Origin: Phorcus lineatus
Lineage: Eukaryota; Mollusca; Gastropoda; Trochida; Trochidae
Assembly (NCBI GenBank): GCA_921293015.1
Contig: OV121082.1
Coordinates: 20,563,748 to 20,627,747, forward strand
Reading direction: 5' to 3'
Length of the DNA stretch: 64,000 bases
Below are positions 2,078-28,290 of this stretch, one piece after another. Position numbers and translations under genes: made by a program. Below the pieces are notes generated by a model. That model had not been told where the DNA came from. It ran no database searches and worked only from the letters and a program-made list of their open reading frames with translations. Numbering within the stretch: the first letter of the stretch is position 1; each line of letters begins with the position of its first letter.

Positions 2078-2411
2078 TTATTACCCGAGGAAGTGTGTCA
2101 TATGACTTTTACGAAACGAGTGTGAATTTTCGCACGAGTTTCGTAAAAGTCGTATGAAACACTCCCGAGTGTAATAATTTCTTTATTACCGATTCTAATC
2201 CATTTCAAACGCATGGAAATATTCAGAAAACGGCCTCCTTCCCTTTCTACGGCCCGCTACAGTGACGTCATGAATAATGGTTTTATGACGTCATAGACGA
2301 CAAAATACGGTCGCTCGCGCTGAAAATATCGTTGCTAGGCAAAAGTGATATGTGCACATGTGCTCATATTGAAAATATGTCACCACTTATGATTAACCAT
2401 ATGGGTAATAA
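2078..2411. mobile_element. Hairpin MITE with TTATTACCC terminal inverted repeats
   Basis: The element begins TTATTACCC at 2,078 and ends with the exact complement GGGTAATAA at 2,403-2,411. Its left 100 bases form a near-perfect hairpin. The arm from 2,081 (containing CATATGACTTTTACGAAAC) folds onto the arm ending at 2,177 (containing GTTTCGTAAAAGTCGTATG), leaving a loop of about seven bases. Two TGACGTCA palindromes lie at 2,263 and 2,286. It has no coding capacity. Unit B (near 10,185) and unit C (near 18,098) keep the uninterrupted site before TCATTGCTATG, which in unit A reads ATCACTGCTATG just after the element. This supports transposition into unit A after the duplication. Confidence 0.75.
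2263..2293. promoter_or_regulatory. Paired CRE-type palindromes (TGACGTCA x2)
   Basis: Two exact TGACGTCA octamers start at 2,263 and 2,286, a 23-bp step, inside the MITE. TGACGTCA is the consensus site of CREB/ATF bZIP factors. Whether it is used here is unknown. The same pair arrangement recurs at 3,576/3,600 and 24,405/24,429. Confidence 0.4.
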
Positions 2412-3481
2412 ATCACTGCTATGTTACATTTACGCATCCGCTGTCTCCTAAAATGTTAGATTTTAGTTTATTGTCAAGAACATATATGTCAACGTAGACC
2501 TTATTGTGGACGTAGTGTAAGCAAAGTCACTAATGGTTGAAATACTACCCCTTATACCTTAGCTATAATACCTTTGCTAGTAACATCATTTAATAAGATA
2601 AATATATAAGAACGGAGTAGCGTTAAGAACATTTACCTTGATAACAAAATAGAAGAACTGGGGTCACCTAAGATGATCCAAAGGAAAAGAATAAAAGCAT
2701 GTGAAAGTATTAAAGATCTCTTTCATGTTTAACACTACAAATATCCTTCATACCTTTCAAGGCCACAAGGCTACTGTAAACAAACAAAAAGTATATCAGA
2801 TTAATCGTATCAAGCATTTGCCACATGCTCGTTATTCAGTCTTCAGTTTTCATCCTCGATATAAACAATATTTATTATTATATTAACTCATCTACTTGTT
2901 ATGACATTTCTTGTTTAAATTAATCTACTGAGAAAGGAACAATGTGTCATAACATTCTGCATTCAACATATGTGTCTTACGGCGATTGATCAAATTTACT
3001 TGGCTTAGCATATATTCAGTTACGTCTCATCTTTTGTTAACATTCGTTTTCGGTTAGGTTTAGGATTTTCTTTGTTTTCTCATACCAATAGCATGTTGCT
3101 CATTAAAACCGTTCAGTACATATTTTCATTATCTTCGAAATGGATATTTCATTAACAACAGCTCCAAGTGAAAGATGTTTTCTTTAAGATATCTTTATTA
3201 CGTCTGATGCTTCGAGAATTGATTCTCCAGTTCTCATACATCAAGACAAATTGGAAATCCAAGTTAATGATGATAAAACTTCGTCCTGTTGTGAAATGTA
3301 TCCATGTTACAAATGAGAACTTCTTTATATATATGGAGGATACTAAGCGACCTTTCATTAAATATTATTTTTATTAAATGAGCTAATGAATCAGTTTAAA
3401 TTGAGCGAAAGCGAGTTTCATATCAAGTCATTAACGATTTCAATAAATATAGTATTAAATTGAAGGACGTTTAGTTTCTGA

Positions 3482-3678
3482 TTATTACCTCAGTAATCAA
3501 GAATGATTGCCGAAAGTGTACTGAATGAAACAGTTCCGCGACTTGGCCGCCATTGTGACGGCGGTGCCAACATTATGACGTCACAACCACACAATATTAT
3601 GACGTCATTCATTATTGCTCTAGTTTTATATCGCCGTATAAATATTACACTGCAGTATCTTACAAGGGCGTGTAATAA
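3482..3678. mobile_element. Short MITE related to the element at 2,078
   Basis: It is bounded by TTATTAC (3,482) and GTAATAA (3,672-3,678), the same terminal heptamer as the larger MITE. Inside is a GC-richer core with CTTGGCCGCCATTGTGACGG, followed by two TGACGTCA palindromes at 3,576 and 3,600. Host sequence resumes with the block containing TGTTATTTTCAACCGTATA, which matches unit B near 12,455. Short open frames cross it on both strands, but their composition shows no protein family. Borders rest on the short inverted repeat and the loss of unit homology. Confidence 0.55.
3576..3607. promoter_or_regulatory. Paired CRE-type palindromes (TGACGTCA x2)
   Basis: Exact TGACGTCA octamers start at 3,576 and 3,600, a 24-bp step, inside the short MITE. 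The sequence between them (CAACCACACAATATTA) differs from the other two pairs, so the octamers are better preserved than the spacer. Confidence 0.4.
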
Positions 3679-4498
3679 ATCATGACAGACTTCCATCTCG
3701 AATATAGTGTTATTTTCAACCGTATAAAGGTATGCACAGACTCTATGTAAGCAAGGCAAAGAACAGTATAAAATGCAAATATCAATTCACTTGTTTATTA
3801 TTGATTTATAACTGAATGCCATAAATGTTCATGCCGTTTTGTATTGTGGAGCATTTGATGATTTAAAAATAATTATTCTATGTTGACAGAAATCGTTTTT
3901 TGTTTAGCTATTTCATATTTTACACAAATGATTGTTTTAGTTGGTAAAGATGTTCATCCAGCCTTCACTCTTCGGATTCCTTTAATCTATGAAAAATAGC
4001 TCTTTTTGAATTATTATATATTTTTTCAACACTTGGCAAAGAAATATTCAGTTTATCTGCTGTCCTTTAGATGTAAGTGCGGTGTCCAAAAGCAAAGTGA
4101 ACAATTATTTAACAAGGGTCCGGAAGTCTCCAAGTAGTACCAAGAGCAGCAATAGCGATGGTGAGTAAAGAGTTTATGGCCAACACTCAGTGGAACAATT
4201 CGAATGGAATGTAGGTATTTCATACAAATATATTGTGGACATCCTTTCTTGACAAATACCATGTTTAACTCATCGTTATAGGTGGCAAAGTAGGCGTTTC
4301 ACAAGTGGTGGAGCCGTGAATGGAACGTAAACTTTTCTACACTAATATAAAGAAAACAACTAATTTATTTATATTACGACTACATGTTTACTTTATGTTT
4401 TGTGCCTCAAAAAAGCTACAAGGATATGAAATGACATTATAGGGCCGATTTGAAATTGTAACGGAAGTAGAGCTCACAATTTGACGATTCTATTTTCG

Positions 4499-4680
4499 TT
4501 TCTGTAGCCAGTTATCTCAACCTCAAGCATATACTCTGAAACGTCGTGAATGGTACAAAAAAGTTGTAATTATCCTTTCCAAATTACCTTTCTGTAGCCA
4601 GTTATCTCAACCTCAAGCTTATACTCTGAAACGTCGTGAATGGTACAATAAAAATTTAAATTATCATTTCTAAATTACCT
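4499..4680. repeat. Two-copy tandem repeat, 90-bp period
   Basis: TCTGTAGCCAGTTATCTCAA starts at 4,501 and again at 4,591. The two 90-bp copies are almost identical over their first 60 bases, differing at one base (CAAGCATATACT against CAAGCTTATACT), and less alike in the AT-rich second third. This is far better conserved than the unit-level duplications, so it is young. No coding potential is seen. Confidence 0.9.
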
Positions 4681-5930
4681 CCAAAAACCTGATTCCTAAT
4701 TCTGCATCTACCAAACGTTGGAAGGTTTCACTGCAAGAAGTAATTGTCAATCATTGATTAATGATGCAATCAAACTTTTAAGTGATGTAAGCATGTTTAA
4801 AAGGTGATCTTGTCTGAAAGTGTATCTAATTGAATTAAAGTTTGATTCCATTTCAAAGGATTGTTGACGATGCCTTGAAAAATACACCTTCAATCTATTG
4901 TAGTTGACGTTAAGATCTAGGGATATTGAAATAATATTATCTTATTTGTTTCCATTTATATTATAACAACTTTCGAATAACTTTATAATTATATACACTA
5001 TTACACTATTATGAAATTGAATTAGGTGTTTACTTTAGTTGAATAACAATCCTTCTAAGCGATGTTCATTTTGGGAAAAAGGAAGAGCAACTTATAAAAA
5101 ATTATTATTTATAAATATCTCAAAACGAAAGATCAGTTTTATCAAGGGCTTTCTATACAGGTCCTTAGTTTTATTAAGTGTTAGATTTCAAACTTCATTG
5201 TTTTAACTTAATACCATTTATGAAAAAAATATATAATTTGCAATATTTATTATGTATACTTATTAACAGTATTGTAATTGTTGGTATTGTATTTGAAAAC
5301 TAGTTTTGTTTTCTCCAAGATGATATAACATTACTGCGTTCTATTCGGAGTTTTATTGGAGACGCTGATGGTGTTTAACTGATGATTGAATGTTTAAAAC
5401 ATTTTGTAGACAATGTGTATAGCAGAATATGTTCAGGTTTCGAATTAAAAAGAATTTCGAAACACAAACACATGATCATCGAAGTTAGATGCGCACAACA
5501 TTAGACTTTCGTATATCATTTCATATTTCTAGTATTGCAATTTTTTTTACATGTTAACACGGTCTTAAAATTCACTAACAGTCAAATTGCCCCCTGGTCA
5601 TACAAAAGTTAATACAGGTCTGTTATCCTCAACTTACAGCTTTTTTAAAATTAAAATAAAATAAAGTGAAGTTATTTATATTTCGTCACTAAGATATCTT
5701 AATTTAATGTGTAAGAACAATACATGATGTTCATGTATTTTATTTTAATAAAAGTAATTACGTGTCAATAAGCTCGTACGTAGCATATATATATTTATTG
5801 CTTGAAGATTTACACATTCTGTACACATATTCTATCACTGACCGACTCCCTACAATAACTAGGAGGATACATGTGTTTGGGCATGTGATCTGATGTCATT
5901 TTCTCCTAAACTTTAAAAAAAACCAGGATC

Positions 5931-6192
5931 GAGTGAGTGAGTGAATGTCGCGAGTATTATTGCAGGGAGAAAGCCCGCAGCACCATTACGGCTATGAATT
6001 ACATTTCGAGTGTCGGCTCGAACTAGCGAACCATGGGTGGTACTACGCTGGAATTCGGTGTAGCATTGCACCGAAACCTTACTGCGCATAGAAAAGTTTA
6101 TTACTGCAGACAAAGTTGCCGAGCCCCTGGAGGGGATACGAACCACGGACCTCTTGATACGGAACCGAACATGCTAACCACTGACCTATCCC
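5931..6192 (-). mobile_element. tRNA-derived SINE, near full length
   Basis: Read on the minus strand, the right end is a tRNA-like head. An A-box-like block TAGGTCAGTGGTTAGCATG lies at 6,188-6,170, and a B box GGTTCGTATCC at 6,144-6,134 (consensus GGTTCGANTCC). These are the internal RNA polymerase III promoter parts. A tRNA-unrelated body follows and ends at GTGAGTGAGTG on the plus strand (about 5,933). Body landmarks GCAGGGAGAAAGCCCGC and GAACTAGCGAACCATGGGTG recur in the copies at 16,745 and 47,316. The flanks CCAGGATCGA and ATCATATATAACCTGCAG join to match the uninterrupted unit C sequence CAGGATCGATCATATATTTC near 22,970. Confidence 0.85.
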
Positions 6193-7514
6193 ATATCAAT
6201 CATATATAACCTGCAGCGTCTTACGGAACAGTAATTATCTGTTTTATTTGACCAATCTAAAAAACATTGTTTTTGTCATTTCGTGAGAAGTAAAGATGTC
6301 AGTGCCGGTCAGGTCAAATATCTCATACACACAACCATGAAAGAATTGCTGGTAAAAGTGGAAATCAAAGTGTCTTATTATTAGTCATTATTGATTGTCT
6401 TAAATTGTTGTTGGAGGTGATCTAAAACCCTCAAATACCACATGAATTTTAGATAACTGTAAGTTGCTCCACGATGTTACTCAGTGCAAAGCTGTCCGAT
6501 TTCTATTTCTATTTTATGTTCGAGAGTTTCATAAAATTGCACTCTGCTATCATACAGACGGTTTTGATTGCAAAGGGAGTTGTCACATTCAATTTAGATT
6601 CACTGATAAAGATGAGGTTTATTAACCATAACAATATTAAAAATTTCCAAACTTTTGATAATGTTTATTTATTGACAGTTTAGGGCCGACATAACCTGTC
6701 CTTGGAAAATAATTTATGTTATAAATATTGATAACCTCCTTCTCAATTTGTTATGACCTCTGTATAATGGCATTTGGGATATAGAAAAGGTTGATGGAAT
6801 CGAATTAATTTTCTAATTACTTTTGACAACTTCCTATCTATTTGGGAGATTTTATGAATTAATGTGCCTTATGGTTTAATTGGCTGTAATTCAAACCTAA
6901 TGAAATGAATAATAAAACCCAATGAATCTCCTAGATATATGTAAAAAGTCTAAATTATCTTCTCCAGACAAATACAGAAGACAAGTTTTGATGTGTTGCT
7001 GTGTTCTGTTGCACGCACGTTTTTGATTGATGATTCTACTTTTGAAATATATGGTTTTATTAGTCAAAACCAAAACTAAAATACAACAATCATGTAGAAT
7101 AAAACTAGGCAATAACTTATTTACTTATAACTTTAAACGTCAATTTCAAGCTTACAACATTAACACGAGATCTCATCTATTATAAAGTTGTAAGTTAAAT
7201 GGATTATAGTCACATGATTATTGTTAACAAATGAAAATTAGTTTTTGCACTAGCTTCCCTCAGGAATCTATAAAATTCTATTTTTGTACAAACTGAACTT
7301 TACGGTCCCATCTCCTTCCCCAAATTATTAGTTTAGACTATCAAGAACGCTACATTTTAACATTTGAACAAATGTACGATTACTTAGATTTGCAACATGT
7401 TTTTCACAAAGCATTATTTGCAAATGTTGTTAGATAACGTTACTAAATGAAATATTTCTCTACTAAAGACAGAACTATTTCCAATATGAATAACGTTCTT
7501 TTCTCGGTCTGAAC

Positions 7515-8295
7515 CAATTCCAATAAGATGGAAAAGCATGCACACTCCAGATTCCTTAATCAACCAAAACCATATCTTATCTATTTAGTTTCATGAAAGC
7601 TATATTGGATAGTTAGACTCTTCCAAAGGTTATTCCTGACGAACACTTGAGAAAGCAATAACTCTGACTAATTCTCTAAACGCACATAAAAGTTACTCAT
7701 AAACAACAGACAAAGAAAGTAACAGCTGCTTTATGAAACCTGTACAACATTCACAATTATTGATGTCAAGTAAATTGGTAATCTGTTCCCAAAATAATCT
7801 TCAATCATGACATTCCTTTATAGAAGATCAATTAGGTAATGTCTCAATATCTGTTTGAAATGAAATTATTCTAGATTAGGCACACAGACTCCAGATACCT
7901 TAATCAACCAATAACAGATCTTGTTTCTGCTCTGTTTAGTTTCATTGGAAGCTATATTGGATAGGTAGACTGTGAATAACTCAGACTTAATCTTTGAATT
8001 GCATTTAGAAGTTATATATGTAAGGAAGACACGTTTTCTGGATAATAACTTCTTTATTGTAAAATTAACAAGAAGTTGTTATTATGAAATTATTTTATCC
8101 AAAAAATTATCAAAATAATTGACAAACTAAGGACAAAAGAAAGTAGCTGCTACTTTATTAAACCTATACAAGTATCATAGTAATTGATGTCAAGTAAATC
8201 GGTAATCTGTTCACAAAATGATCATAAGTATTATTACCTCTTTTTACAGGGGATTAATTATCTAATGTCCAAATATGGTTGAAATGAGATTAATC
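7515..8295. repeat. Local direct duplication of the unit-end module inside unit A
   Basis: Two ~350-400 bp copies follow one another. The first (about 7,515-7,870) has ACACTCCAGATTCCTTAATC, then GATGTCAAGTAAATTGGTAA and TTATAGAAGATCAATTAGGT. The second (about 7,880-8,295) has ACAGACTCCAGATACCTTAA, then GATGTCAAGTAAATCGGTAA and GGGGATTAATTATCTAATGT. Unit B shows one recognisable copy of the module start. The copies differ by many substitutions and small indels, so the duplication is not recent. Confidence 0.7.
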
Positions 8296-9936
8296 TGAAT
8301 AACCTTTAAATACTTTGATCCTGTTCTCATCTGATTATGGTTTGCAGATGTTAAGGATTATTCAGCATATTAATATTAATTCAATCATCAACAAATATGA
8401 ATTAAAGAGCGTCGGTCATATTTTATTCCATTTGAATGAGGAAAGCAGAAACAACACTAGTTTTCAAGGTGATAACCAATACTCTAATAAGTAATCTTAG
8501 GAAGATTACTAGATGGTTGATGGACAAGTTCCTGTGACTTGATTTTTTTACTGTTTTCAACTTTCAGTAGAAATGGAGATATACACAAACAGTTTTAAAA
8601 TGTTCTAAAGATAGCTTTACGTAAATAATTTGTTTTACATCAACATCTGGTTACAGTTTCCACTCTACATTACTACATTTATTTGAAGCATGTCATTTCA
8701 TGTGTCTTTTCATATTTTTGTTTCTTTGTCGATGCTTTCACCGGGAAAAAGAATTTTTGAAAGAGAGTCTGCAAACTGAAATACATTTTATATGTAAATT
8801 TCATGTAAATGAGGAAATGTGTTAAATATACAAATATAGACAAATAGATAACATACAAGGCACATTTTCGTGTTTGTTCCATCTTCGTTTGGAGGACACC
8901 TAAGCACACACAAAAAACGACGATGAAATATCAAATCACAAAGGGAACCTGACATTAAAACATTTCATGACATCTTAATCTTAACGCACAATTTATGAAA
9001 TACATGTACTTAGCGCAACAGAACCTATTTGTCTTTTTAAAATGTTCTATGTGATCTATACCTTCTGAACAGGATTAATCAATCTTTATTAATGTTCTAC
9101 TCTTCTATCTTTAAACGATTTGTTAAACGAAGACTCAGCAGTGTCTTGACTCAGGCACATGCGGTAAATATAGCGATTATGAGAACTCAAATTTATTATG
9201 CAAAATATTTATATTTGTCTGTTATCAAGTCATACCATATGTTTCCAAGTTGCATTATATAGTTAGATAAATAGTGATAAAGAATGAAGTAATACGTTAT
9301 GTTTTTTAACTGTCGACATTTAGATCCCAAAGACACATAAAACACACCATATGTTTTCAGATTATAAAATATATTATATGTACATTTCAATAATAATTTC
9401 TTGCATTCCATGTTCATAACAACGTTTACATTAAAAAATAATTGCCTTTATTCACCTTACAAAAAGGAAAAAAGAAAATCGTTTTATTTGTTTATTTTCT
9501 TATATCATGATGTACAATATTTACACACGTCACGCACTCTCATGACATTGTTGCAACTTCATCCAAGTTAAATCAAATGTACCCTTAAACTTGTAAATCT
9601 ATTCTGAAGCACGTCTTGTCATATCAGATTCCTCTTGCAACCGTCAGATTGTCTGGAATTTCTATTCACCCTTGATTAAGAAGACAGAACGTCCTTTATA
9701 GCTGGGGGCCTTCTTAAACAGAACAAACCGAGCAAGGAAAATGGATTTTTTCATTGCATAATCATATCCAAGCATTCAATTTGATATTCTATGGATAGTG
9801 GATTTCTATTTGTAATTATTATAAACACGATCGTGAACATGTCTGATTTCATAACAAACATAAAATACTATGAGATTTGAAGCTTAATTAAGCTCATGAC
9901 ACGGAAGTTCATTGAATGTATATTGTAATCTTGCAA

Positions 9937-9975
9937 TTAATAATTAATAATTAATAATAATAATAATAATTTTAA
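9937..9975. repeat. AT-rich microsatellite
   Basis: Runs of AATTAATAATTAATAATTAA pass into (TAA)n repeats ending at TTTTAATACCGGG. It is a simple sequence in unit B; units A and C do not carry it at the matching place. Confidence 0.8.
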
Positions 9976-12900
9976 TACCGGGAAATTTTCTGATTTAAAT
10001 AAAACACTATTTGAAAAATATACAAAAAGTATATTATTTTGTGAGTTTTTGACAGTAACGTTTTTATTAGTAATACTATGATACTTTCAATAGTGTGATT
10101 AATGTACCAATAAAGACTGCATAAACTACGATTACTGTTTAACGTTCAAGGTGTCTTACAGTTGTAGTGTCGTAGTAAATTTTCATGCATATCATTGCTA
10201 TGATACCTTTACCTATCCAGTGTCTTCTTAGATGTTAGATTTTAGTTTATTGTAACAGAACACAATGTCGACGTAAACCTTATTGTGGACGTAATATAAG
10301 CAAAGTCACTTATACTTGAAATACTGTCCCAACTGCACAATAAATCACTATTTTGGCAAACGTGTACTCAAATGAATGATAGCGGGAGAAATCCTTGTGG
10401 TCTACTAAGAGTCTGTTTTGATTATGGTAATCGACTAAAGGGAATAACATGAAATGGGATTGGGATAAAGGGAAATGACTGCATATACGATAGTTACCTT
10501 TATTTTTCTTACATGATAGTCAGCTTCAAACAATCAGCCTCATTTGATGAAAGAAGCTTCATTATGTATACTGCAATATAATTTAGCTAAACATATTGCT
10601 TCTAGTCACATCATTATATAAGATCAGTTTGGATAAATGGAGTAGTGTCAAGAACATTTACCTTAATCCTGAAAAAGAAGAATAGGAGTCACCCAGGATA
10701 ATGTAAAGGAGCTGCGAAAGAATTAAAGAACACCTTCATGTTTAATATCGCACATATTTATATATTACACATTTTTCCTTTTACTTTATTGTAAATGGCT
10801 ATAGCACTTTTTAACAGTACATCACCATACCGATGAAGAAAATAGAAGCTTATCTAGACATGCAATGAATCTAATATCTAGTATTGAAATTGTTGCAATG
10901 ACTTCATCTTAAATGAGATCATTGATTATTTCATAAATACCTTTTTGCAAATGCATTCTGAAACTTAGATAAAATATGAAAAATTATTTTCTTTACAATC
11001 GTATCTCAACAACACGGTCAATATGCTAAGCGCTTTGTGCCAATATCTTCCAAGTGATGACAAAAGAGGGCTTCACATTCATGGATGCAAACGGTTTTTC
11101 CCTAAGAAAAACCAAAAAGCTGGTTGGAAAAATATAACTTTGTAATTAAGCAATTAGCTTTTTGTGGTTAAATTATTCACGTAATGATATAAATTCATAT
11201 TAGTCCGTTGAAATAATGACTCACTAATCATGTCACTGTCCATGTTAAATTTTTGATAACAAGAGATTCATTATAACATAACAAACAAGAAGTAAAGCAG
11301 ACGGTTAACACATTCTTGTTATTCACAGTCGTGCCACAGATAAACCTTATTTGTTATTCAGTTCACCCACCACTGACATAATGACACTTTTTCATAAAAC
11401 TAATCTCCTCTGAAAGGAAAGATGCATAATAAAATTCTGAAATTAACATATGTGGACTTTGGTAATAAATCCAATTTACTTGTCAAAGCATAGATTAAGT
11501 TAATTCATATTTTCATTTGGTTCGTTTGTGGTAATCTTTTAGGAATGGTAATGACTGGTTTTCTAAGTTGCACTGTAGAACCGTCTTACAAGTAGTTCAA
11601 ATTATAGTCATTTCCTGTCGTAATCTTAACATAAAATAGCTATATGTAGATTAGTTTATATTTCAGGTGTTATGCTGGAGGAAATCTTAATTTCATAACT
11701 TGATGAAAAAGCATATTTCATCTTTTATGTTAAAGGCTTATTTCAAAGAGTATTTGTCTTTGTTTCCTCATAACTACAGCAGGGTGTTAATCAAAATCGC
11801 TTCCTACAACTTTCAATTATTTTCGAAATTGATATTTCATTAACTATAGCTCCAGGTGCTAGAGGTTTTATCTGACTTACGCCTGATAATTCGAGAATTT
11901 ATTCTCCAGTTCTCATTTTTAAATTACATCGTTACAAATTTGAAATCCAAGTTAACAATGATACATTTTTGTCGTGTTATGAAATGTATCCAATTAACAA
12001 ATAAAAACCTTCTAATCATTCAAATCAATGAAAAATCAATCTTTACAGTTATCTTTGTTAAGATATTTCAATACACTTTTGTAGTGTTATAATGTATTTT
12101 CATAACATTTCGATCAAGAAAAATTAATTGCAAACAGCAATAAATGAATTTATATCACTTTTGAATAGTTACCGCTATAAAGCTTTTATTTTGAATGCCT
12201 TCCTCAAACTGAAGGGATTATGTCAAGTATACATTTACATCACATTTCATAAAATGCTCGCAAAGCAGTTCTGTCCAAATTCAAATTCTTAAACTACACA
12301 ATTCCTCATTAGATCCATATTTCTATAATATTCAACTCATCATGGACACTATTTTGTTATTTCATTGAGTTTTCTTATTGTCATCAAATGCTTATTCTTA
12401 TATCGTGACAATGGTAATAAATTAAGTTCAATAAACTTGCGTTATTTCAAAATAGTCTTGCTTTCAACCTTAGTATCATAACAGTGTGCACAGATTTGTG
12501 TAAACAAGGCACAGCACAGCATGCATATATGGAATCATTTTCATGATTAATACCATTGCATGCCATCAGTGTTCATGCCATCGTACATCGTATGTCGCGG
12601 CTTTATTTGTGATTATAAAAGAATTATGACATATTGTTTGTTCAGCCGAAATTGTTATTGGTTTACGTCTTTATATTTAGCACATGTGATTTCTTTAGTT
12701 GGTAATTTTTTTTATCCAGTCCTTACTCTTCGGAGCCTATAAAAATGAAAGATAGCCGTTTATAAATTATACATGTGCCAAAACATGAAATGTAAAGTTG
12801 ATTTGCTGTCTTTAAGATGTACGTGCTGTCTAAATGCAAGGTGCATAAATTTTTAGTTATTACATGAGTCCGGAAATCTCCAAGCAAGAGGGCTGCAGAG

Positions 12901-15900
12901 AAAAGATTGTAAGGCCCACACACAGGGGAACATTTAAAAAATCGAAAACTGTAGATAATTCATACTAATATATTGAGGTTATCCTTCCGAGAGAAATATC
13001 ATGTTTATCTCATTAGGTTAAGTGGTAAAATAGGTATTTCACAAGTGGTAGAGCCGTGAATGTATCCTAAACTTCTGTACATTTGACAGAAATATAGATT
13101 CGTGAAAGGAAACAACAGCTTTATTTATTTTACGACGACATATTTTTTTGTGTTTTATTATGTTTTTAAACCGCCTCCCTATACTTGCATCTTTATCTCT
13201 TAAATGCGGGAATAATGATATTTTCTTGTGTTCGGTTGTAATCGGAAAATGGCCCTATAAATGTCAAGAATTAAAAATTGTGTGTCCACTTTAACGTGTA
13301 GATCAGTTAAACGACCTACTTTACCCTATCTACCGATGTTTTTTTCTTTGTGTCTGCTGTAAATATGTTTCGGAAATTACGTTTGAATAATTTATAATAA
13401 ACTGTCCGGTTTTATGATCACAAATCACGACACTTACCTGTACCACGCCACTGTATTGTCACTATACTGAACTGATGAGCATTAGTATTCTGATTTCCTG
13501 AAGCAGCCACTACTTCTTGATAAAATAACAATGTTTAGGAAGATTGACATATTTGACTCCAACAACATACTCTGTGTCCCTTTAACGATTATATTGTGTA
13601 GTTAATTTCAAGTACACACAGCTTGTTTCGAAACAGAAATAAGAAAGTGTTATATTTAAAAAAATCAGTATTTTTCAAACGTTATCATTAATTTCAGAGT
13701 ATGATAAATCTGGATCCACTGGCTTAAAATCGAAATGTGCAATCACTCCAAAGTTTGTTTGTCTCCACCTAACTCTTGATGGTTTCACTGCAAATAACAA
13801 TTGTAAATTGATACTTGTGATCGGGAAATTACATCAGTCATAGAGTAATGATGTAACCTCCTCACAATCAAATAATGTTAGCATGAATATAAAGGGATTT
13901 TGTCTCACAGTGCATTCAACTGACTTCAAGTTTGATTCAATTTCAAAGGATCACTGACGATACAGACAAAGACATTAAATCAATAATTGCTACTTGATGT
14001 TCAGATCTTGTGAAATTCAATGAAACTGTTTTTATTTCTTTTCCATTAATATCATATTTTTTACTGACTCGACGATTTTATATCATTGAAATTGACTTTG
14101 TTACACTATTAAGCAATTGAATTAGGCGTTTACTTTGGTAATGTCACAAAATTTTCCTTCTAATCAATGTAAATCTAGAAAATTTAATAGTAACACTTTT
14201 TTGGGATGTATTATATATACGGATCTCAAAATGAAGGGTAAATTTTATCAAGTCTTAAATAATGAATTTATTGCTTTTACTTATTACCTTATACCAATTC
14301 AAACAAGGTATCTCATTTGAAATATTTATTGAGTAAGCTTATGGAATGATAGCATCATGTTGTATGTAGTTATTTGGATTGTAGTTGATAGGTCACTAAC
14401 CTTATAAAACTTTATAAAAAAATTACTTTCCTGAACCAAACTCGATGGTCAACAATTGTCTGCCTTTCAGAAGTTATAAAAGATAGTTCCACCAAAATGA
14501 CTTCTTCGGACATAGGTATGGCCTATTTAGAAAACTGGTTTTGTTTCCTCCAATGTATATGGTATGACATCATCGTGTTGTATTTGGAGCTTATAATTGG
14601 TTGCAATAAATAAACTTTTAGGCGCTGATAGTGTTAAATGACATAGTATGTATAGACACACATCATCTAGTTTCTGTTTAACTCGTGTAAGATTGATTTT
14701 TTAAGAAAAGATTGTCGACATCACCAAATCTTCGTTTTCACAGAATAACACTCGACAAATTACATCAAAAGATCCACGTTATATCTCGTAAGATTGATCT
14801 TATCACGTATTGTGATAATTTGCTGAAGAATAATCTGAATTTGTGAAACGTGATTAAATGAATGTTTAATATATGAAAGTAATCAAAATACCTCATAGAA
14901 CAAGGATACAGACAACATTTTACTTTCGTTTACTTTTTACTGTCTTCCAGTAGTGCAAATGTAAACATAACAAAGAATATTGACCCACTTCTTAGAAAAA
15001 AGGGATTGGAGTGATTAACTTATAAAGTGAATAAGTCCTTATGGTCATGCAATGAGTAATATAGGTTTGTTCGCCTCAGGAAACTGTTGTCAAACGCAAT
15101 TTAGGTCAGTTATTGTTACTCACTCTTTAAATGACACCTTAAATGGTTAAGGTACATCATACATTTCCTACAGTTTGTTTTTAGAGTATTATTGTTGTTA
15201 CTATTGTCGGGGACACTTACACATTTAGAATATATCAATCAAAGGATCAATCAAATCAAAACACTATTATCAACCGCTAGTTAAAATGACAAACAAATGT
15301 GCTTATTATCATTGACTATGAATAATCTATAGATCCAAAAAGTCATTCAAAATTCATGGTCTCAAATACCACATAAAGTCATGATGTTATTCGGTGTAAA
15401 GCTGTTTGATTTCTATTTCCTATGTTAAGGTTTTTCATATAGAAATAGCACATCGCTATCGCAAAAGGCGATTGCCAAGAGAGCTGTCAAATTTGATTTT
15501 GATTTACTGGAAGATTATAAAAGGCACAAAGATACCAAACATGTTTGAAATACCCGACTGTTACAGATTTCTGAAAGCTTAAGATGATTTTAATTATTCA
15601 TAGTTTTATACGATTTATGTATTAAATAGATTTATAATTGAGATCCAACATGACTTGTCCTTGGAAAGTAAAAGTATAGATTAGAATGCTATGAACTCTG
15701 TATGGAAAAGGTTTATCTAATTAAATTAACTTTCCATTATCGGTTGACAACTTCCCTCCAATTGGATGACGCTATGGAGTAAAACTAATCTTTTCATAAA
15801 AAAAGAGTACATTAAGATGTCAACATCAATAAAATTATATGCTTGATGTAAGAAAAAAACTGTTAATGATGTTCCACTTTTGAAATAGTAACATCATTCG

Positions 15901-16744
15901 TGTTATACTTAACTGATTTTGAATGTATCTACTTATGTAGTTTCATTTGCTGTAGTTGTAAACTTATGTTATGAATAATAAAACAATGCATTTGTTAGAA
16001 TTAAAAAAATTACCAATCTTGTTTACTCTAGAACATATTTGATATGTTGCTGTGTTTTGTTGCATGCAAAGTTTTGTTTGATAATTGTGCTTATAGAATA
16101 AATTGTTTTATCAACAAAACCAAAATAAAATAGTCCATGTATGTATAAGAAAACGATGAATTTCACTTAGTATTTTAGCAATTACATCACAACAAATAAC
16201 ATACTTCCACATCAAACTAATTACGTTGACATGAGATTTCATCTATTGATGAGTTACAGGTTTGATGAATGTGAGTAACATGATTGTTTTGTAACAAATA
16301 AGAATACGATGTGCCACTTACTACATTCAGAAATATATAAACTTCTACTCTTTGAACAAACTAGTTGTACACAAATTTATCATTCACATCAAAAGATTCA
16401 CAGTTTATCATTTGAAATAATTTAAACGAGTATTTACGAAATCGTAGATTTTCAACACTTTTTGGACTGAATAAAAATTAAACCTTGGCATTCCATATTT
16501 GCACTAAGATGACACGATAGCTCTTCCCTTAATGTGTAGTCGAAAATTTTTATTTTGAATATTATCTGACATACTTTCTTCCACCTAAACCAATTCCCAT
16601 AAGATGAAAAGGCATGCAGACTCAAGATTTGTAAATAAACCATTACAATTCTTGTTTCTACTCTATTTAGTTTCAAGAGAAGGTATATTGGATGGGCAGA
16701 CTGTTTCAGAGGTTTTTCCTGACACACATTGGAAAATGGAGGGG

Positions 16745-16990
16745 AGGTGAGGTGATATGCGGTTTAAAGCCGCTTCTCAAGAGTATTTCACTTACATCCC
16801 TTCCGCTAGTATCAATGCAGGGAGAAAGCCCGCTACACTATTTTGGCTAGGCATTGCGGTGAAACCTACGAGCGTTGGCTGGAATTAGCGAACCATGGGT
16901 GGTACTGCACTGAATCCAGTGTAGCATTGCACCCAAACCTGACTGCGTATAGAACAGACTGCTAGTTCCATGCGCTATTGTTGTTCTCTT
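16745..16990 (-). mobile_element. tRNA-derived SINE copy, 5'-truncated
   Basis: This is the same body as the SINE at 5,931: GCCGCTTCTCAAGAGTATTT, GCAGGGAGAAAGCCCGC, GGCATTGCGGTGAAACC, GAATTAGCGAACCATGGGTG and TGTAGCATTGCACCCAAACC in order. The tRNA head with A and B boxes is missing; similarity stops near AGAACAGACTGCT or a few bases beyond (about 16,970-16,990). Loss of the head is the usual outcome of incomplete reverse transcription. It interrupts the end module of unit B. It should be transcriptionally dead. Confidence 0.8.
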
Positions 16991-19839
16991 TACAAGCTTT
17001 CTTTTTAGCAATAATATATAAATGGAATGATAAATGGTCTCCTGGAGATAACTTGAAAGAGATCATGTTTCCCTTCAACATCTGGTTACAATTACCATTC
17101 TAAATTCCTTAACAATCAAGAGCATTAACCATAATATTTGCGTTGAAGCAATTCATGTTATATGTCTTATTTAATTTTCTTTGTAAATGTTTCTCAGGGT
17201 AAAAGAAGCTCCAATGCAGAGTTTCAATCAACATCGGCAATAATGCATGACAATCTAATTCTATATTTTACACAATAATTTATCATTATGTAATCTTCAA
17301 CTTTTCACTTCACTATAATCTCTAGGAAACATCAAAGATAAACTACATGTTTTTCAGATTACATTGGATAACAGATGTACATTTCAATCATACTTTCTTC
17401 ATTCCATGTTCATTACAACATTTACATTTACAAATAGATGTGCTGATATCGTTTCCTCCATATATTTATTCTATTCTAATTTACATTATATGTAGACCAT
17501 AAGCTCTTACATGGCATTGTCGCAAATTCAGTAAAGGTAAATCAAATGTACTTTTAATCAGTGAAATCTATTCTGAAGAACGTACCTTCGTATCATGTTC
17601 CTCTTGTAATCGTCAGATTGTCTGGTTGTTTTGATCACCCTTGATTAAGAAGACAGAACGTCCATTATAGTGAAGGGTTGTCTTAAACAGAGCAGGGGAA
17701 GAAAAATCTTTGCAATGACGAATTTCCTTGCCAATTGTAGTTTTCATGGATCATCAAATGTTAAAGTTATGAATGTACAAAATTAACATTTATAGTTTTT
17801 TCAACCATTTGTTCTAAAAAATATTCATATCGATTTTTCAGAAACATTTTTAAATCTTAAAAAGCTTTAAACACTCATCGGCAAAATGTCTGATTTCATT
17901 AATATATTTATTTAGAATTATTATCAGTGTAACAGCTTATTTATCTGAATTAATATCACTAAAACAGTATTGAGATTTGTCATATCAGATTTCATAATTA
18001 CGATTTTAATGTGTAAATCAATAACGTTTTCATAAACTTTGATTACTTCTTTCCATATTCATGATTCTTAAAGTTGAACTATAGTTTTAAAAGGTCATAC
18101 AAATCATTGCTATGCTACACTAATGGCTTGAGTGTCCTTTTGATTTATGAAATGATCTATATCATAATGAAACGGATTACAAATGTAAACATTAACGTTA
18201 TTGTGAAGTTTATTTTGGCAAGCGTAAACTTTAATGATTTATATCACTTGATGTCCATATAGTCTACTTAGAGATAGCTTCAATCATGGTTATCGACTTA
18301 AGGGAATGAAATAAAATAAGAATGGGACCCTGAAAGCCAAAAGGGAAATTATTACATTTACTGCAGATACCTCTCTGTTAATTACAAGACGTACAAGTAC
18401 AAAGAATCAACTTTATTTTTTGATAATGACAGAAGATGGCTCTTTGGCTTCCATTTGTTCAATCTATTAGATTTATTGTCAAAATGCTGTTGAGAGTTAT
18501 ATCCTTTGAAAATGAGTGTCTGCAATATGTATCGTAAAACAGGGCAGATGCTTTTTGAGTCATTCAAGATAATTAAAGTTTAGGAAGCTCATTTAGCATT
18601 AAAGACGTGTTTTAATACCACAAATATAAAACCTTACCTAATCTTCTTTGGTCTTTCATGTATTTCCAATAGTATAATTCCATTGGTTTTCAAGAAAAGA
18701 CATGCGGCACAAAAATACGATTGGTATGTACTTTTTAAGATCATTTTCATTATTTTTCTAAGAATACTGTGCTTAAGTTGTTGGTTGAAAACTCAAAATG
18801 TTACATACTATAAAAAAAACTACATTACTATTAAAAAAAAGGTCTGAGACTTAAGGGTTAATGAAATATTGATTGTAAATCATGTCTTTTTGTCTGAACC
18901 AAAGAGACTATAGATGTTGCATTGTTAATTGAATTTAGAATCTTCTGTTGAACAGAACAGTTGTCATGACAGAAAGATGTGATTGAGCAGGTGTTGTTCC
19001 AGTTTTTGAGTTCTTGATTACTCCAATAATTGTTTTACATTACACCTTTTTAGCATATATGACGTAAGTAAATTTACCTGGAGTATGTTGAGAATCATAT
19101 AAAGTATACATCACCACGATTTATGTATTTCATCCTAACATTGTGACATTCACAATTACATTCTCGAAAATGCATTCAAACATTTAACAAACATGAGGTA
19201 TGTTAATTATTTTCCTTAAGTCTCAACTCAAATGTTGATACACACTGCATAACAAATATTGCAAAATAATCTTCGTGTTGACAAGCGGGAGCTGAATAGT
19301 CCTAGGCTTTAAACTGTAAACCGTTGCCCAACTCCCGACGACTCCATAAATAGCCTATTTAAAGGTAGGATAATTTATTTCATTTTAGAAAGATAGATTT
19401 GTGTCAGATGCGATTGTTAGATATCAATATTAGTTTGTCAACTGTATGGTGAATTGAGGATATCAAGACTTCATTATTACCCTTGACTTACTTACGAGAA
19501 GATAATTTTACATCCTTCAGGGCCACCAGAAACTGAAACTAACGAACCGGTAATCAATAGTTGGCAAATCGTTTCAAGCATTTGGCACAAATATGTTATT
19601 TTCTGTTGTAAAATATCCTTCAAAATAGTAACCAAATTTGATATAAGGTTCATATTTTGCAAGAAATTATTTTTTTAAAGTTAGATTTATGTTCTTAAAT
19701 GGATCGAGGTTTCTAAGGAGGCCAGGATTGAAAAATGTGCAGGTGTGATGCTTTTTTATTTTTTTGGATTCATATAATTATCTATTTAGCATATTTCGGT
19801 CGTGTCCGATTTCGGTTATCCTTTGATATATATATATTT

Positions 19840-20700
19840 ATCATATAATGGGTAGTGTTATTGATGCAATAAACCCATCTTGTAATCATGTTATCAGATC
19901 CCTGATAACAATACAAATGGGGGTAACTAGGTCGCACTACTTTCGCTAGCTCCGTACCGAGAAGAGCGAATCGTAAAACGTTTCCTCAGCAATACAAACG
20001 ATGTGTCGAGATCGGTATGTTTTGCAGACGTGGGCGTCAATGTTAACAAAAATGGCCGCCTTGTCAATCGGCGATTGTGATCGCATCGAGAACAAATGTA
20101 CAGGTACCATCACAGCTGTTATTGACATGTATAATGGGAGCAAACACTACTATGTATGAAGTGAGGTTTGAACACTCGCTCCTGACGAAGATTCCAACTA
20201 AGGTGCCTATGTGTCGTGTCCACCTGGTGCGAGAACCTTTGAACGTGACCTGTTGGCCTGTTCCTGTGTTGTATTGCTACGCGGGTCTAATTTTCAATTT
20301 CAAATGTTTTGAACGATGTTAAATATATCTTAAACATTTATGACGTTTTGTATTTTGTGTGATGTTTTATTCAAACAAAACGAGTACACTATTATAAAAG
20401 GTTTGACAAATTGGACTATTTTGCTCTTGTGTGACGTACTTTTCCTATGACGCGAAATGGAATGTGAGTTTGCCTAGTGATGACGTGGGTATATTCATAC
20501 GCCCTTTCCCAAAAAAGGAGCTTTATTTCAAAATGACATAATATCATAAAGAGATTAGTACCTTCGTATTGTTTAAACCGTAAATATCACTATATAAACA
20601 ATATTGACTATGTATTAGGGTCGGTAAACCTCGGCTAATACAATCTTTATTGTTTATATATTGATATTTACGATATCTAAACATACTCTGGTAATAATCT
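19840..20700. mobile_element. Palindrome-bearing non-autonomous element in unit C
   Basis: Homology to units A and B is lost across this block. Its middle (19,930-20,290) is clearly richer in GC than its surroundings, and its right part holds a strong hairpin. Arms at 20,579-20,603 and 20,648-20,672 pair with one mismatch over 25 bases, with a second inner pairing of GTATTAG with CTAATAC. Degenerate relatives of the TGACGTCA motif (TGACGTAC at 20,432 and TGACGTGG at 20,481) and a GGCCGCC block at 20,054 suggest kinship with the other MITEs. An 81-codon open frame at 20,077-20,322 matches nothing I recognise. Borders are approximate. Confidence 0.45.
20579..20672. repeat. Long hairpin (25-bp arms)
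   Basis: The left arm starts CGTAAATATCACTATATAAA and the right arm ends TTTATATATTGATATTTACG. The arms pair with one mismatch around a 44-base interior that itself pairs GTATTAG with CTAATAC. It could be the terminal structure of a foldback MITE. Confidence 0.8.
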
Positions 20701-21129
20701 CTATATAAATATATTTGTAGTGATGGGTTCTCATTTTTTTACTGTATTACCGTTAATAATGCCAAGCATCTGCGCAATTGCTTTTGTAAAACATTATCAC
20801 AACGTTCAGATTATTCACATTATTGTCATTTCTCGTTGTAAGGTTAAGATAGAATGTACCATTTGCATTGTCACAGGGATCATCAGAACTTTCCTATGAA
20901 ATTACATGCAAATTTGGTAGGTGTCACTAATGAACACAATTTGGTAAAAAATAAATCGGTTTGACACAGAACTAATTGTTAAGTGTGGTTTATGACACTA
21001 GATAAGCTTGTAGCTTCACAGTTCTTGATTTCACTTACACTCCATGATTCAAACTCGGACTCAAGTTAACCGATATGGCGTTGATAGAAGGCGGGATTTG
21101 TTGCAAAGAGATCATATGTTATTTAATGA

Positions 21130-21480
21130 TGCCAACATAATTAAACGCGACTACAATGGTAGGAGATCAATTATGAGATTCTGGAGGAAAATGTAGGAAC
21201 GACAGAATGGACTCGTGTATCATAGCGAGAGGCACGAGAAGTTCAGGTATGAGATCCTCATTGCGTACGTTAGACCATAAGCTGGTGCTGTTTGCCCTGA
21301 TATAATCTTGATGGATGGTAATGCAAGTCCCCATCGGGCTTGGGTTGCGAACCAGTTCCTAGAGCGGATACAGTAAGGCGCATCTATTTGTATGCGTGTT
21401 GGCCGGGCCTAAGCCCTATCGAGCATCTGTGGAGGATGCTGCAGGTGGCAATGGTTGGCTGTTTGGCAAAACGACAACAT
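21130..21480 (+). pseudogene. Dead Tc1/mariner-like transposase fragment
   Basis: The frame from 21,248 reads YEILIAYVRP, stop, AGAVCPDIILMDGNASPHRA and then WVANQFLERIQ, followed by a stop. After a frameshift, 21,400 onward reads WPGLSPIEHLWRML. Tc1/mariner DDE transposases usually carry a DNARPH block with the second catalytic Asp, followed by WP-x-SPDLNPIEHLW. Here the Asp position is Gly (MDGNASPH). The second block lacks residues of SPDLNPIEH, which points to a short deletion. With two stops, a frameshift and a lost catalytic residue, the copy is inactive. The N-terminal helix-turn-helix part was not found. Terminal repeats could not be located. Confidence 0.8.
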
Positions 21481-24084
21481 TAGAGAATTACTATACTACA
21501 GGTTACTTTCTTTATGATAATATACATTGTTGTTTCATAATGAATCAAAGTTCCAAAATTTAATATTCAAAATCATTGAATGTTTCGACTCATTTACATT
21601 GATAATAACGGTGATTTGACTCTTTTCTAACCATGTAATTCCTAAGTGTAATGCCTGTCATGTATTGTTTGTGTAATCGTCTGATGATAAGAACATCCCA
21701 GATTACATCTACGTGTGTCAAGGCTTGTTTCCAAGAGTATTGGTCTTTATTTTCCCAATAACAATAGCATGTTCCCTGCCTACATGTAGTTCAATTATCT
21801 TGAACCTGATATTTCATTAACAACATTGACAAAGGTTATATTTCAGATATCTTAATTACGCCTGGTGCTTTGAATATTCCTTCTCCATTTCTCATTTGGA
21901 AATGACATTGATAAAGATTGGAAATGAAATGTAGACACTTTTTAATTCATCTGGCATGAAAGGCCCGATTGGCTTTTGGCATGGTATGGCGCCCAGCGTC
22001 AATCTATCAACCTGTCCGTCCGTCTGGAAACCTTTTGCTGTTACAAATTCTTTTCCAGAACCATTGAAATCCTTTTCACAGACTCCTTGACTTATTAGGT
22101 TTTCTCAGTTAATACATTTTCTTCTTCTTATTCAAATGCAAAATACATACAGACTTCTAAGCTCATGGGAAACTAATCTAGAATTGGTGATTTTGTGGCC
22201 TCAAAAAGATGACCCTGTGACAATTTGTATGATACATTATAGATAGTCGTCACGATATCAGATGAATTTTGAAATTGACAAAGCTTGCAGTGTAAATAAT
22301 TGCTGTTAACTATTCCCTGCATATGGGTTTGTCCTACATTTGTCAATCATGAGTAAGTTTGGCTGTTACTAAATGTCTTTTTACCAGTGAACAATTTGGC
22401 CACAATACACTATCAGAAACAAAACAATACAATCATCGAACCAGTCTGGAGAAAACATTAGATTTTCGTTTATCATTTTACTCTCTTTCCGTACATAACA
22501 AAGAATATTGTTACAGTTCTTACAACTCAGGGACAGAAGTGATTAACATGGTCCCCTCTGGTCATATAAAGGTTAATATGGGTCTGTTAGCCTCAAGAAA
22601 CTGTTGTCAAAAACAGTAAAGACAGGTTCTGGTCGGGGACGTTTTAAATTTACACATCAATCAGATCAATATCTCCATATATAAATTAATACCTAAGTAT
22701 ATTAAAGTATTTTAATTTAAAAATTTCAAGATCAATAACCTCTTATCAAGCATATGTAGTACTGTAGTATGGTATTACCTAAACGACTAAAAGTCTTATA
22801 GGGTCACACAAATTCCATTTAATCACTCTTACAAGATTTCTTTCGGAAGTTGTGTCACGTTCTGTAAATACATTCTATCGAGAACGGATATCCTCCAATA
22901 GCTAGAAGGATATATGTGTTTGTCCATGTGATCTGAACTCATTTTCAACCCAACATGTGAGGAACAGGATCGATCATATATTTCCTGCAGCTTGTTGTTG
23001 AATGGCACTTCTCTGTTTCACAAGTCGATGGTGTTCACATTTAGGTGAAAGTGAATTGTCATTTAAGAGGTAATTGTCAGCTCAGTTGTCTGATGAAATA
23101 TATCAAATTAGAAACATGCATATCTAAGAAATTGAAGCACATTTTCTTACAGAAATAAAAAGTTTCACGAAAAGGAAAATAAATATCATCAATTATAAGA
23201 CAGTCATGTTTTTTTCACGAAAACTACCAACCAATTCATAAATGGACGTTTCTAGGCATTTTTAGAAAGTAGAAGTAACTGACATGATAAAAAGGTGCTC
23301 ATACTAAATAGTCGCATTCTTCAACTTAAACTTCGAAATAATGTTCCATTTTACAATTAAGAAGATTGATCAGATATATATTTTACACTATGAAGATAAC
23401 ATAGTTCATAGTAATATATATACATATAATAATCATATTCATTCGGAAAACAAATTGAACAAATAAAACATCAAAGTGTCTTAAATGTGAAATGTCTAAT
23501 GTTATTTTGTTTTTTACAAAATCTATTTCTAGATGTCCTTGGAAGCCAACATAAATACAACGAAGAGATCACATAAAAAGTAATGAAAAAAAACAAACTT
23601 ACAAAGCGCACATCTACACAAACATTGTATCTTCTCAATACGAAGTTGCATAACTTTAAATAAATATATTCTTGCATTTAGACCAGTTTCGTGAAAGCCT
23701 CGAAATAGGTAGATGTCTGTTTGGAGGTCACATTGCTATATCATGCCCTAGGGAGAAGATAAATGGGAACTATTTTCGTATTGGATGTGCTTCTTGTGAT
23801 TACCAGCACTTGCTACTTCATTCATGATAGACATCGTGTTTAACAAGAACAGAAAAATCTTTTTACTTACAGTATGTTTCTCAGAGATTACACATTACGT
23901 TTTTCATGAAAATTGTTTAAAGCTATACACGCTTGCTTTTAACACTAACATTTTTCTTATCTTGAGCCTCTTAAACAAATTCAATAATGTATAGTCAATA
24001 AGAAAGCAAACAAAATATGTAAGATGACTTTGTTGTTAATTGTAACATGACTTCGTTGTATCCTCGATTCTGATTGGTCGATTC

Positions 24085-24860
24085 TAAAAAATTACCCTAT
24101 GTTGAATGACAATGAATACCCACAAATTAGCAAAGGCGAATCACCGCGAATTGATACAACATGTTCACTAGTGCCGGCCCGACTCAAGTTTTATTTTTCC
24201 AGTTTCTTAGAAAATTCGTGCCGTACTCCGATTCGACATTTGTCTTTGTCCTTTTTTTATATTGTGTCTACCGGTAGATATAACAAATACACTTTAATAT
24301 GATTTATTTTTGAAGAACGAAAATATTTTCAACTGGCATACGTAGTCCAAGTTTGCCGCAAAGTTTCATGCGGCCGCCTTCTTTTGAATGCCGTTCCCAT
24401 AGTATGACGTCACAAAGGCCAACCGTTTTGACGTCATAATATTTACGTCGCTGTCACAATGGTTGTGGGCTAGTTCAAGACTTTTGTACTCGGGGTTTTA
24501 CGATATTTTTCTACGAACTTTATAATTGATGATTTCGGTCTCGAATTAAACAAGTATGTTGTAAGGTCTCGCTGTTACGAATGCCACTATTCGCTATTAT
24601 CACAACGATGTTTGTAATGTAAATAATGCCGGGAATTCACAATTGTTAGACCTTATCTAACCTCTTACAGAAATAGAACAAGTCCTTTCCACACAAAAAT
24701 AAGTACGCAAAAACAGAGTTCGCTCTTAAAACTTCTAATAACTAACGGTCATGTTAGAATATAGATAAATTAAATTTAAGCGTTTAAAACCTCCGGCTAA
24801 CGCCGTCGGTTTTAAACTAAATTTGCGGGTGTTGAATAACAATGAATCCCGGAAATTTTA
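24085..24860. mobile_element. Hairpin MITE-like element with paired CRE sites
   Basis: A GC-richer block unlike its surroundings. Near the left end is TGTTGAATGACAATGAATAC (24,100). Near the right end is the directly repeated TGTTGAATAACAATGAATCC (24,830). A hairpin lies at 24,771-24,823, where the arm GTTTAAAACCTCCGGC (from 24,782) pairs with GCCGTCGGTTTTAAAC. The core carries GCGGCCGCC and two TGACGTCA octamers. No transposase remnant is visible. Borders are approximate because there are no clear terminal inverted repeats. Confidence 0.5.
24405..24436. promoter_or_regulatory. Paired CRE-type palindromes (TGACGTCA x2)
   Basis: Exact TGACGTCA octamers start at 24,405 and 24,429, a 24-bp step, inside the unit-C MITE. 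Upstream is GCGGCCGCCTTCTTTTGAAT, resembling the GC-rich lead-ins of the other two pairs (CGGCCTCCTTCCC and TTGGCCGCCATTG). Confidence 0.4.
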
Positions 24861-25229
24861 CAAACGCAACTATTTATCTTCTAAACGTTCCTAGATTGTT
24901 TCATTGTTTGATAAATAGAGTCTTGTTACCATATCATTCTACACTTTGGTCGTCCCATCAGTTATTACACACTTCTGATATTAATAACAGTTATCCAATT
25001 ATGGGGACTGATTAAACAAACAGTCTTTACTATGAGGATGATTAAATGAAACAAGCACTTTAAAGTCTTTTCATCAGGTAAAACAATACATGAAACGATA
25101 CTAAGAGTTTAATGAGTAAGGTGTCAAACTTTACATTTCAAGAATGTTTCAATCACTTAAAACAAATCTCATGGCAGATTGTTGGAGCTGTTCGGTGTTT
25201 CACTACCTTCAAACCATGTCCGATTATCT

Positions 25230-25900
25230 CATGCATCATTTGGTAACGACTGAATGAACATATCGATTACATCATAAAAGTAGCTTCAAAAATGGTATCT
25301 TCCTTAGGTAAACTAAATGTATCATGTATTATCACGTTCAGTACTTAATAGGATATAGGTAATATTCATTAGAGACCATTTTGAACAATATCTTTTATGC
25401 ATGTGAGGTATGGGATAGATGTGCTCAATAACAGGCAACTAATTAGGAACAACTACAAATAGAAGCAAGAAGAATTCTAACAGTTTTACCAAACTATCTA
25501 AATTTTACAATATATATAACAATAACGCACCGTCGTATCTAAATGATATGCTACCCACCAACGTTGCATCCAAGATCAACTATAATCGTCGTAATCAGCA
25601 GCCTGACTTAGTCATAAAAATTTGCTACATATCAACAATCTAAATACAAAATTATGATAAAACGAACGAAGTACAACGAACGGAGAAATGTCAATATCAG
25701 ATTCGCAAAATTAAGTTACGTTTTGATCTATTCCGTGTGGCTCTTATTGATAAACCAAGTAGCTCCTGTGGAAATAATTTTGAGAATTCCTTCCACTGTT
25801 TTTCTATTGGAAATCATATGATTCAGAGATATCTGTTATTGTGTCAAATTTACACCGTGTAACAAACAAGAATTATTTTTTCAAGGCAATGTAGATCTAA
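25230..25900 (+). pseudogene. Decayed LINE (non-LTR retrotransposon) ORF2 C-terminal region
   Basis: Conceptual translation with several stops and frame changes gives pieces typical of the end of a metazoan LINE ORF2. They are HIDYIIKVASKMVSSLGKL (from ~25,258), RPFxxxxxMHVRYGID (the IRP-x-EYxxVWD region), NYKxKQEEF/EQLQIEARRIL, YNNNAPSYLNDMLPTNV, and finally IDKPSSSCGNNFENSFHCFS, which corresponds to the C-terminal Cys/His motif (CxCG...E..HxFF). I cannot assign the clade firmly; a CR1/L2-like element is the best guess. The copy is 5'-truncated, as LINEs often are, and inactive. It adds length to unit C relative to A and B. Confidence 0.7.
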
Positions 25901-28142: not shown

Positions 28143-28290
28143 AAGTTAGAGAAGATAGGTAGATAAAATCTCTTCATTGTCGAAAATATGATTTGAAATA
28201 ATTTTTTATATATTTTTTACGTGACAATAAGAGCGCAGCACCAGGTAGGGCGTTGTTCTTTGTTTAAAATGTCGATTGTGTCAGAAAATC
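28143..28290. repeat. Left member of a direct repeat flanking the RT fragment
   Basis: GATAGGTAGATAAAATCTCT, then a block ending AGCACCAGGTAGGGCGTTGT, parallels GATAGATAAAATCTCTGAAT and AGTACCGGGTAGGGCATTGT at 29,100-29,195. The repeats are far longer than a target-site duplication and are moderately diverged. Confidence 0.65.

Follow-up and report, generated by a model that had tools for sequence, protein, structure and literature searches.

Paired cAMP-response elements with an upstream GGCC box at three CpG-rich sites of a Phorcus lineatus contig, one of them inside a discrete insertion

Introduction

Tandem cAMP-response elements (CREs) that act together are known from the glycoprotein hormone alpha subunit gene and from the long terminal repeat (LTR) of human T-cell leukaemia virus type 1 (HTLV-1), as 18-bp repeats in the former and as 21-bp repeats further apart in the latter, and in neither case as repeated insertions. 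Here, we analysed a stretch of 64,000 nucleotides from the gastropod Phorcus lineatus (GenBank assembly GCA_921293015.1, contig OV121082.1, positions 20,563,748 to 20,627,747, forward strand; hereafter the window, with positions counted from its first letter), in which the octamer TGACGTCA occurs in three closely spaced pairs. Pairs 1, 2 and 3 lie in segments designated E1, E2 and E3, which an earlier note on this DNA had described as three miniature inverted-repeat transposable elements (MITEs).

By its sequence, TGACGTCA is the CRE motif as given in the available part of a report on mouse intracisternal A particle (IAP) elements, according to which it is bound by CREB1 and other basic leucine zipper (bZIP) dimers; in neurons that lack DNA methylation, CREB1 binds and the CRE is responsible for half of an IAP LTR reporter's activity (PMC9729108). 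The mouse IAPLTR1/1a, an ERVK LTR, resembles our locus as a mobile element whose promoter contains a perfect TGACGTCA. However, it belongs to an LTR retrotransposon and the same part of the report describes no CRE pair at a step of 23-24 bp (PMC9729108), while no clear LTR structure was found for the modules in the window. Human MER85/PGBD3 piggyBac MITEs are likewise short non-autonomous elements linked with bZIP sites, but there the TPA-response elements (TREs; TGANTCA) bound by the fusion protein lie at non-MER85 peaks and the link is made by tethering via c-Jun (PMC3459987), whereas the sites of E1 lie inside the insertion. Terminal-repeat retrotransposons in miniature (TRIMs) of bivalves are a further example of small non-autonomous invertebrate elements; unlike the segments described here they have direct terminal repeats, and TGACGTCA is absent from the main text of the source (PMC6934838). 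A paired-CRE module in MITEs or mollusc elements was found in none of the titles and abstract openings listed by searches of one open-access literature library.

Results

The octamer TGACGTCA is present eight times in the window, compared to a mean of 0.82 and a maximum of four in 100 dinucleotide-preserving shuffles, none of which contained eight copies. Six of the eight copies form three exact pairs (2263/2286, 3576/3600 and 24405/24429), with steps of 23 bp in pair 1 and 24 bp in pairs 2 and 3:

2263 to 2270, + strand: first TGACGTCA of pair 1, exact match
2286 to 2293, + strand: second TGACGTCA of pair 1 (step 23), exact match
3576 to 3583, + strand: first TGACGTCA of pair 2, exact match
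3600 to 3607, + strand: second TGACGTCA of pair 2 (step 24), exact match
24405 to 24412, + strand: first TGACGTCA of pair 3, exact match
24429 to 24436, + strand: second TGACGTCA of pair 3 (step 24), exact match

Pairs with a spacer of 12-20 bp, of which the window holds these three, did not occur in any of the 100 shuffles. TGACGTCA is moreover the only octamer of the window with at least two same-strand pairs at steps of 20-28, and it has three. Ranked by observed over expected counts, it is third among the 256 palindromic octamers (8 vs 0.71), and the two above it occur once each. The pairing that the earlier note had reported as exceeding chance is confirmed as a real observation, with all six octamers exact. 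The 'fixed 23-24 bp step' of that note stands insofar as a step of 23 was found once and of 24 twice; 'fixed' here means within 1 bp and applies to three cases.

A scan for degenerate pairs (steps 22-25, total cost of at most 2.5, CpG decay counted as cheap) returned a single additional pair at 52223 with a cost of exactly 2.5, a level that five of 12 Markov sequences matched, one of them with 2.0. Since the sole degenerate pair lies at a level common in Markov sequences, pairs in the window are either perfect or absent. For the proposed degenerate relatives at 20432 and 20481 (TGACGTAC and TGACGTGG), membership in the set is not supported: each differs from the octamer at two positions, they are 49 bp apart, and GGCC is absent from the 60 bp upstream. 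A lone TGACGTCA at 32048 has GGCC 30 bp upstream (32018) and no second octamer, and is perhaps a decayed module.

Upstream of each pair, what had been noted as a 'GGCC-rich lead-in' could be sharpened to a heptamer GGCC(G/T)CC whose start precedes the first octamer of pairs 1, 2 and 3 by 31, 31 and 33 bp, with identical order and strand in all three cases:

2232 to 2238, + strand: GGCCTCC box of E1, at −31 from the first octamer
3545 to 3551, + strand: GGCCGCC box of E2, at −31 from the first octamer, with AT directly after it
24372 to 24378, + strand: GGCCGCC box of E3, at −33 from the first octamer

The AT that follows the box of E2 yields CCGCCAT, which we take to be a YY1-like motif. Elsewhere in the 64 kb the heptamer has one copy on the + strand (20054), for which Markov sequences gave 0.37 per 64 kb on average, and three on the other strand; bare GGCC occurs 49 times in the window. 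The left 45 bp of E2 and E3 are alike (p = 0.003), as are those of E1 and E3 (p = 0.012), and around the first octamer E2 and E3 match exactly over TATGACGTCACAA. That the three segments are close copies of one element was rejected, as matches of the 250-bp flanks lay within the range of 200 shuffles in six of six comparisons (p 0.10-0.76).

All three pairs lie in CpG-rich surroundings. The window has a GC content of 32% and a CpG observed/expected ratio of 0.77, and among its non-overlapping 240-bp stretches ranked by CpG, those starting at 2101 (20 CpG, rank 1), 24341 (17 CpG, tied for rank 2 with 19861 and 5941) and 3401 (14 CpG, rank 5) each contain one pair. When the CpGs of the octamers themselves were removed, stretches centred on pairs 1, 2 and 3 retained 12, 10 and 13 CpGs; at least as many are present in 2.6, 5.7 and 1.7% of all stretches. 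The CpG-rich region 19861-20160 contains the only other GGCCGCC/GGCCTCC on the + strand (20054), adjoins an open stretch led by ATG and may be a first exon.

Comparison of the window with itself revealed three diverged collinear tandem units at about 0.8-8.3, 8.85-16.7 and 17.25-28 kb, each roughly 8-10 kb long, mostly 65-85% alike where aligned, and partial matches to these units at about 45-50 kb (45100-49600). Such units are ready empty-site tests for insertions. The alignment of unit 1 to unit 2 stops at 2034 and resumes at 2412. With the insert left in place it gave scattered gaps, so an alignment with 2078-2411 cut out was used instead; here the match of unit 1 to unit 2 spans the junction 10190/10191, with 7 bases left over. 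Between units 2 and 3 the alignment runs through this site uninterrupted (10108-10206 to 18019-18118). In a pairwise local alignment of the cut unit 1 to unit 3, the match stops short of the junction (18102/18103), and the empty site in unit 3 follows from the three-way alignment together with the match between units 2 and 3. E1 is a discrete insertion with empty sites in units 2 and 3:

2071 to 2411, + strand: E1, insertion of 341 bp with pair 1, missing from the corresponding position in units 2 and 3 (from the cut alignment; boundaries within a few bp)
2071 to 2186, + strand: foldback (hairpin) at the left end of E1 with the end sequence ATAAAGATTATTACCC, defined by its arms and fold z-score

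Because there are two paralogous empty sites, pair 1 lies, by parsimony, in DNA gained by unit 1. The pair is single and internal in E1, with 192 bp of the insertion to its left and 118 bp to its right. At the edges, a 2-bp AT is compatible with a target-site duplication, the units being much diverged, and in the region 1950-2500 no direct repeat was found.

The foldback of E1 has 58-bp arms (2069-2126 and 2129-2186) that are 79% complementary, the left of which begins 2 bp beyond the edge estimated for the insertion; folded as 2070-2186, it reaches a z-score of −12.7, and its right arm is ATAAAGAAATTATTACAC. A second foldback at 20546-20706 (161 bp, z −9.4, ends ATAAAGAGATTAGTACC and ATATAGAGATTATTACC) contains no CRE pair. 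As the ends of the two are similar, they are probably, judged by sequence, members of one foldback family with a common end. The right end of E1, GGGTAATAA, is an inverted repeat of TTATTACCC (a 9-bp match across the ends) without the outer ATAAAGA. E1 may thus be a single element or a foldback that adjoins a second insertion.

Pair 3 lies in DNA that unit 3 has in excess of the other two units:

23019 to 26314 (outer limits), no strand assigned: extra DNA of unit 3 containing E3, about 3.1 kb more than units 1 and 2, from the unit comparison

Here, 231 bp of unit 1 (6244 to 6475) correspond to 3,371 bp of unit 3 (23018 to 26389), and 169 bp of unit 2 (15182 to 15351) to 3,316 bp (22999 to 26315). 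The nearest anchors are weak alone (E 0.008-0.03), and strong anchors (5813-5903/22856-22946 and 6475-6845/26389-26788) agree with them; the comparison defines no exact ends. The sole inverted pair around the CREs there is 23902/24546 (19 nt, 74%). A 49-nt direct repeat (71%; 24089-24137 and 24819-24867, 730 bp apart) flanks pair 3 and is possibly part of a carrier element. Further downstream, 25380-25860 and about 28200-28400 (both + strand) resemble what we take to be decayed coding sequence of a non-LTR retrotransposon, the former presumably the C-terminal part of an open reading frame; the two open stretches tried gave no Pfam match up to E 0.1.

For E2, the flanks in unit 1 (3324-3720) were compared in three pieces to unit 2 (12000-12500) and unit 3 (21880-22440) and were not alike beyond shuffles. 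E2 was thus rejected as a mapped insertion, having no demonstrable boundaries. One further feature lies next to its pair:

3637 to 3644, + strand: TATAAATA, a TATA-box-like sequence seen by eye, 29 bases past the end of pair 2

E2 has GATTATTACC at 3480 and GTAATAAATCA at 3672 in common with E1, individually not beyond shuffles (p 0.29 and 0.10). Its inverted pair 3433/3875 (23 nt, 78%) has the right arm in DNA common with unit 2, and its region 3200-3900 holds three direct repeats, the longest of 24 nt and one of 19 nt (79%) flanking the pair. The 10-mer GATTATTACC was rejected as a terminal repeat of several elements: it is found at 12 places with at most one mismatch, weak against 6.6 expected (maximum 17), and forms one inverted pair vs 0.19 expected (maximum 2). 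The designation 'three MITEs' therefore survives in part, with pair 1 in an insertion and pair 3 in extra DNA, but pair 2 without demonstrable boundaries and no ends common to the three. Membership of E1, E2 and E3 in one MITE family is not shown.

Other repeats were also seen in the window. The regions 57596-58835 and 41775-42386 are inverted-arm elements (237 and 65 aligned bp), each with an ACGTCA half-site and CTTAGCGCA between the arms; CTTAGCGCA is also present at 9009, so that its position between inverted arms may be chance. A dispersed repeat at 5949-6169, 16761-16957 and 47324-47579 has copies that agree at 66-78% where they align, the first of them being CpG-rich, and is by its look similar to short or long interspersed nuclear elements.

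For comparison, the pair pattern was collected from 101 viral-contig stretches and at least 119 prokaryote-genome stretches. The window had no blastn match at E 1e-3 to these 220 viral and prokaryote stretches. The pattern of GGCC box plus CRE was present in 35 stretches and the foldback-arm word in nine, and the only match up to E 1 among these 44 was 24 bp long (E 0.52). Since the collections consist of viral and prokaryote records, they are uninformative on the family. In the viral control (122 pairs at 101 loci, some contigs being near-duplicates), steps of 21 and 24 were commonest, with 35 and 34 pairs, and are probably codon repeats.

Discussion

Judging from its sequence, we give a probability of roughly 0.5 to the reading that the pairs form a bZIP (CREB/ATF) promoter or enhancer module carried by mobile DNA. 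Such a module would consist of GGCC(G/T)CC, a distance of 31 to 33 bp, TGACGTCA, a step of 23 to 24 bp and a second TGACGTCA, and would be of a compact promoter or enhancer type. Each octamer, as a canonical CRE, would be occupied by one bZIP dimer of the CREB/ATF type; given that centre distances of 23 and 24 bp correspond to 2.2-2.3 helical turns, the two dimers would not be placed on the same side. A zinc-finger protein, perhaps YY1- or Sp-like, would bind the upstream GGCC box. Most likely, the module would have driven transcription of its carrier mobile element, and each insertion would deliver a ready CREB/ATF-responsive site to a new place. With its two CREs, the GGCC box 31-33 bp upstream and the CpG-rich setting, it resembles a promoter or enhancer more than a transposase site at the end of an element. 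Of the earlier suggestion that these elements may spread CREB/ATF-type sites, the sequence part stands, in that pair 1 lies in an insertion, pair 3 in extra DNA and the octamer is the CRE motif; that proteins bind the sites, that the module acts as a promoter, that the three stem from a common source element, that E2 is mobile and that host genes are affected is what we infer.

Several observations weigh against a mobile bZIP module. Only three cases are at hand, and for this reason 'fixed spacing' is a lead and not a rule. A step of 24 is common among the viral pairs, so that nothing can be concluded from the step by itself. The GGCC heptamer was defined only after the three sites had been seen, and a naive probability of the box placement consequently overstates the case. 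The left 45 bp of E1 and E2 are not alike (p = 0.41). Neither are the right flanks significantly alike (p 0.39-0.93) nor the spacers (p 0.07-0.12; three comparisons each), the latter as the earlier note had remarked of spacers that differ around intact octamers. No terminal repeat or end is common to E1, E2 and E3, and inspection by eye revealed a TATA-like box in E2, but none in E1 or E3.

The modules might alternatively serve host genes or non-coding RNAs of the tandem array as small promoters rich in CpG, composed of the CRE pair and the GGCC box, with mobility being irrelevant. The CpG-rich setting and promoter-like layout, the TATA-like box in E2, the + strand orientation of all three modules and the lack of a demonstrated insertion for E2 would fit such promoters. 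We nevertheless regard them as unlikely, if worth keeping in mind, as E1 and E3 lie in DNA absent from the other tandem units. A Pfam search of 10 open stretches of the window also returned no match above the cut-off, the two weak matches (E 0.02 and 0.094) lying below that level, though none of the ten is directly downstream of E1 or E2 and genes there were hardly probed. The same CREs could belong to the upstream part of RNA polymerase III units, such as 7SL, vault and EBER genes with a CRE near −50. The accessible part of one source documents a CRE near −50 together with a TATA-like box near −30 for several such genes (PMC7279448), and E2 has a TATA-like box after its second CRE. Against this stand the missing TATA-like box in E1 and E3, a window without any Rfam family at the gathering score (0 matches) and without tRNA genes according to ARAGORN (0, bacterial-code setting), and a distance of 24 bp between two CREs that is outside the layouts in that part of the source (PMC7279448), all of which makes such units highly improbable.

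The earlier note had also offered a transposase-binding structure; the two palindromes would then be a recognition site or cruciform needed for transposition. Any two TGACGTCA can indeed pair with each other, the three segments fold with z-scores of −2.4, −3.2 and −4.7 (6, 1 and 0 of 200 shuffles as good), and E1 has its strong foldback. However, the folding of the segments follows automatically from two copies of a palindrome, and the foldback at 20546-20706, with ends like those of E1, does without a CRE pair. In E1 the pair is single and internal instead of near both ends, which speaks against a terminal transposase site, and the three segments have no terminal repeat in common. This proposal is not supported, and we consider it improbable. 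Chance combined with selection by the reader would draw on the mere three cases and on an octamer picked after reading; facing three observed pairs vs none in 100 shuffles and the only octamer with at least two such pairs, it retains a very slight probability.

As for the biology of the mobile CRE module, one rather doubtful extension is a conserved three-part switch, made up of the GGCC box and two CREs at set distances, common to otherwise dissimilar insertions, either because selection keeps only the switch or because different elements captured it, which would seed cAMP/CREB-responsive sites genome-wide. If the module recurs throughout the genome in insertions, its spacing would provide a built-in test of function, and P. 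lineatus would clearly exemplify how a defined switch for transcription factors is spread by mobile DNA.

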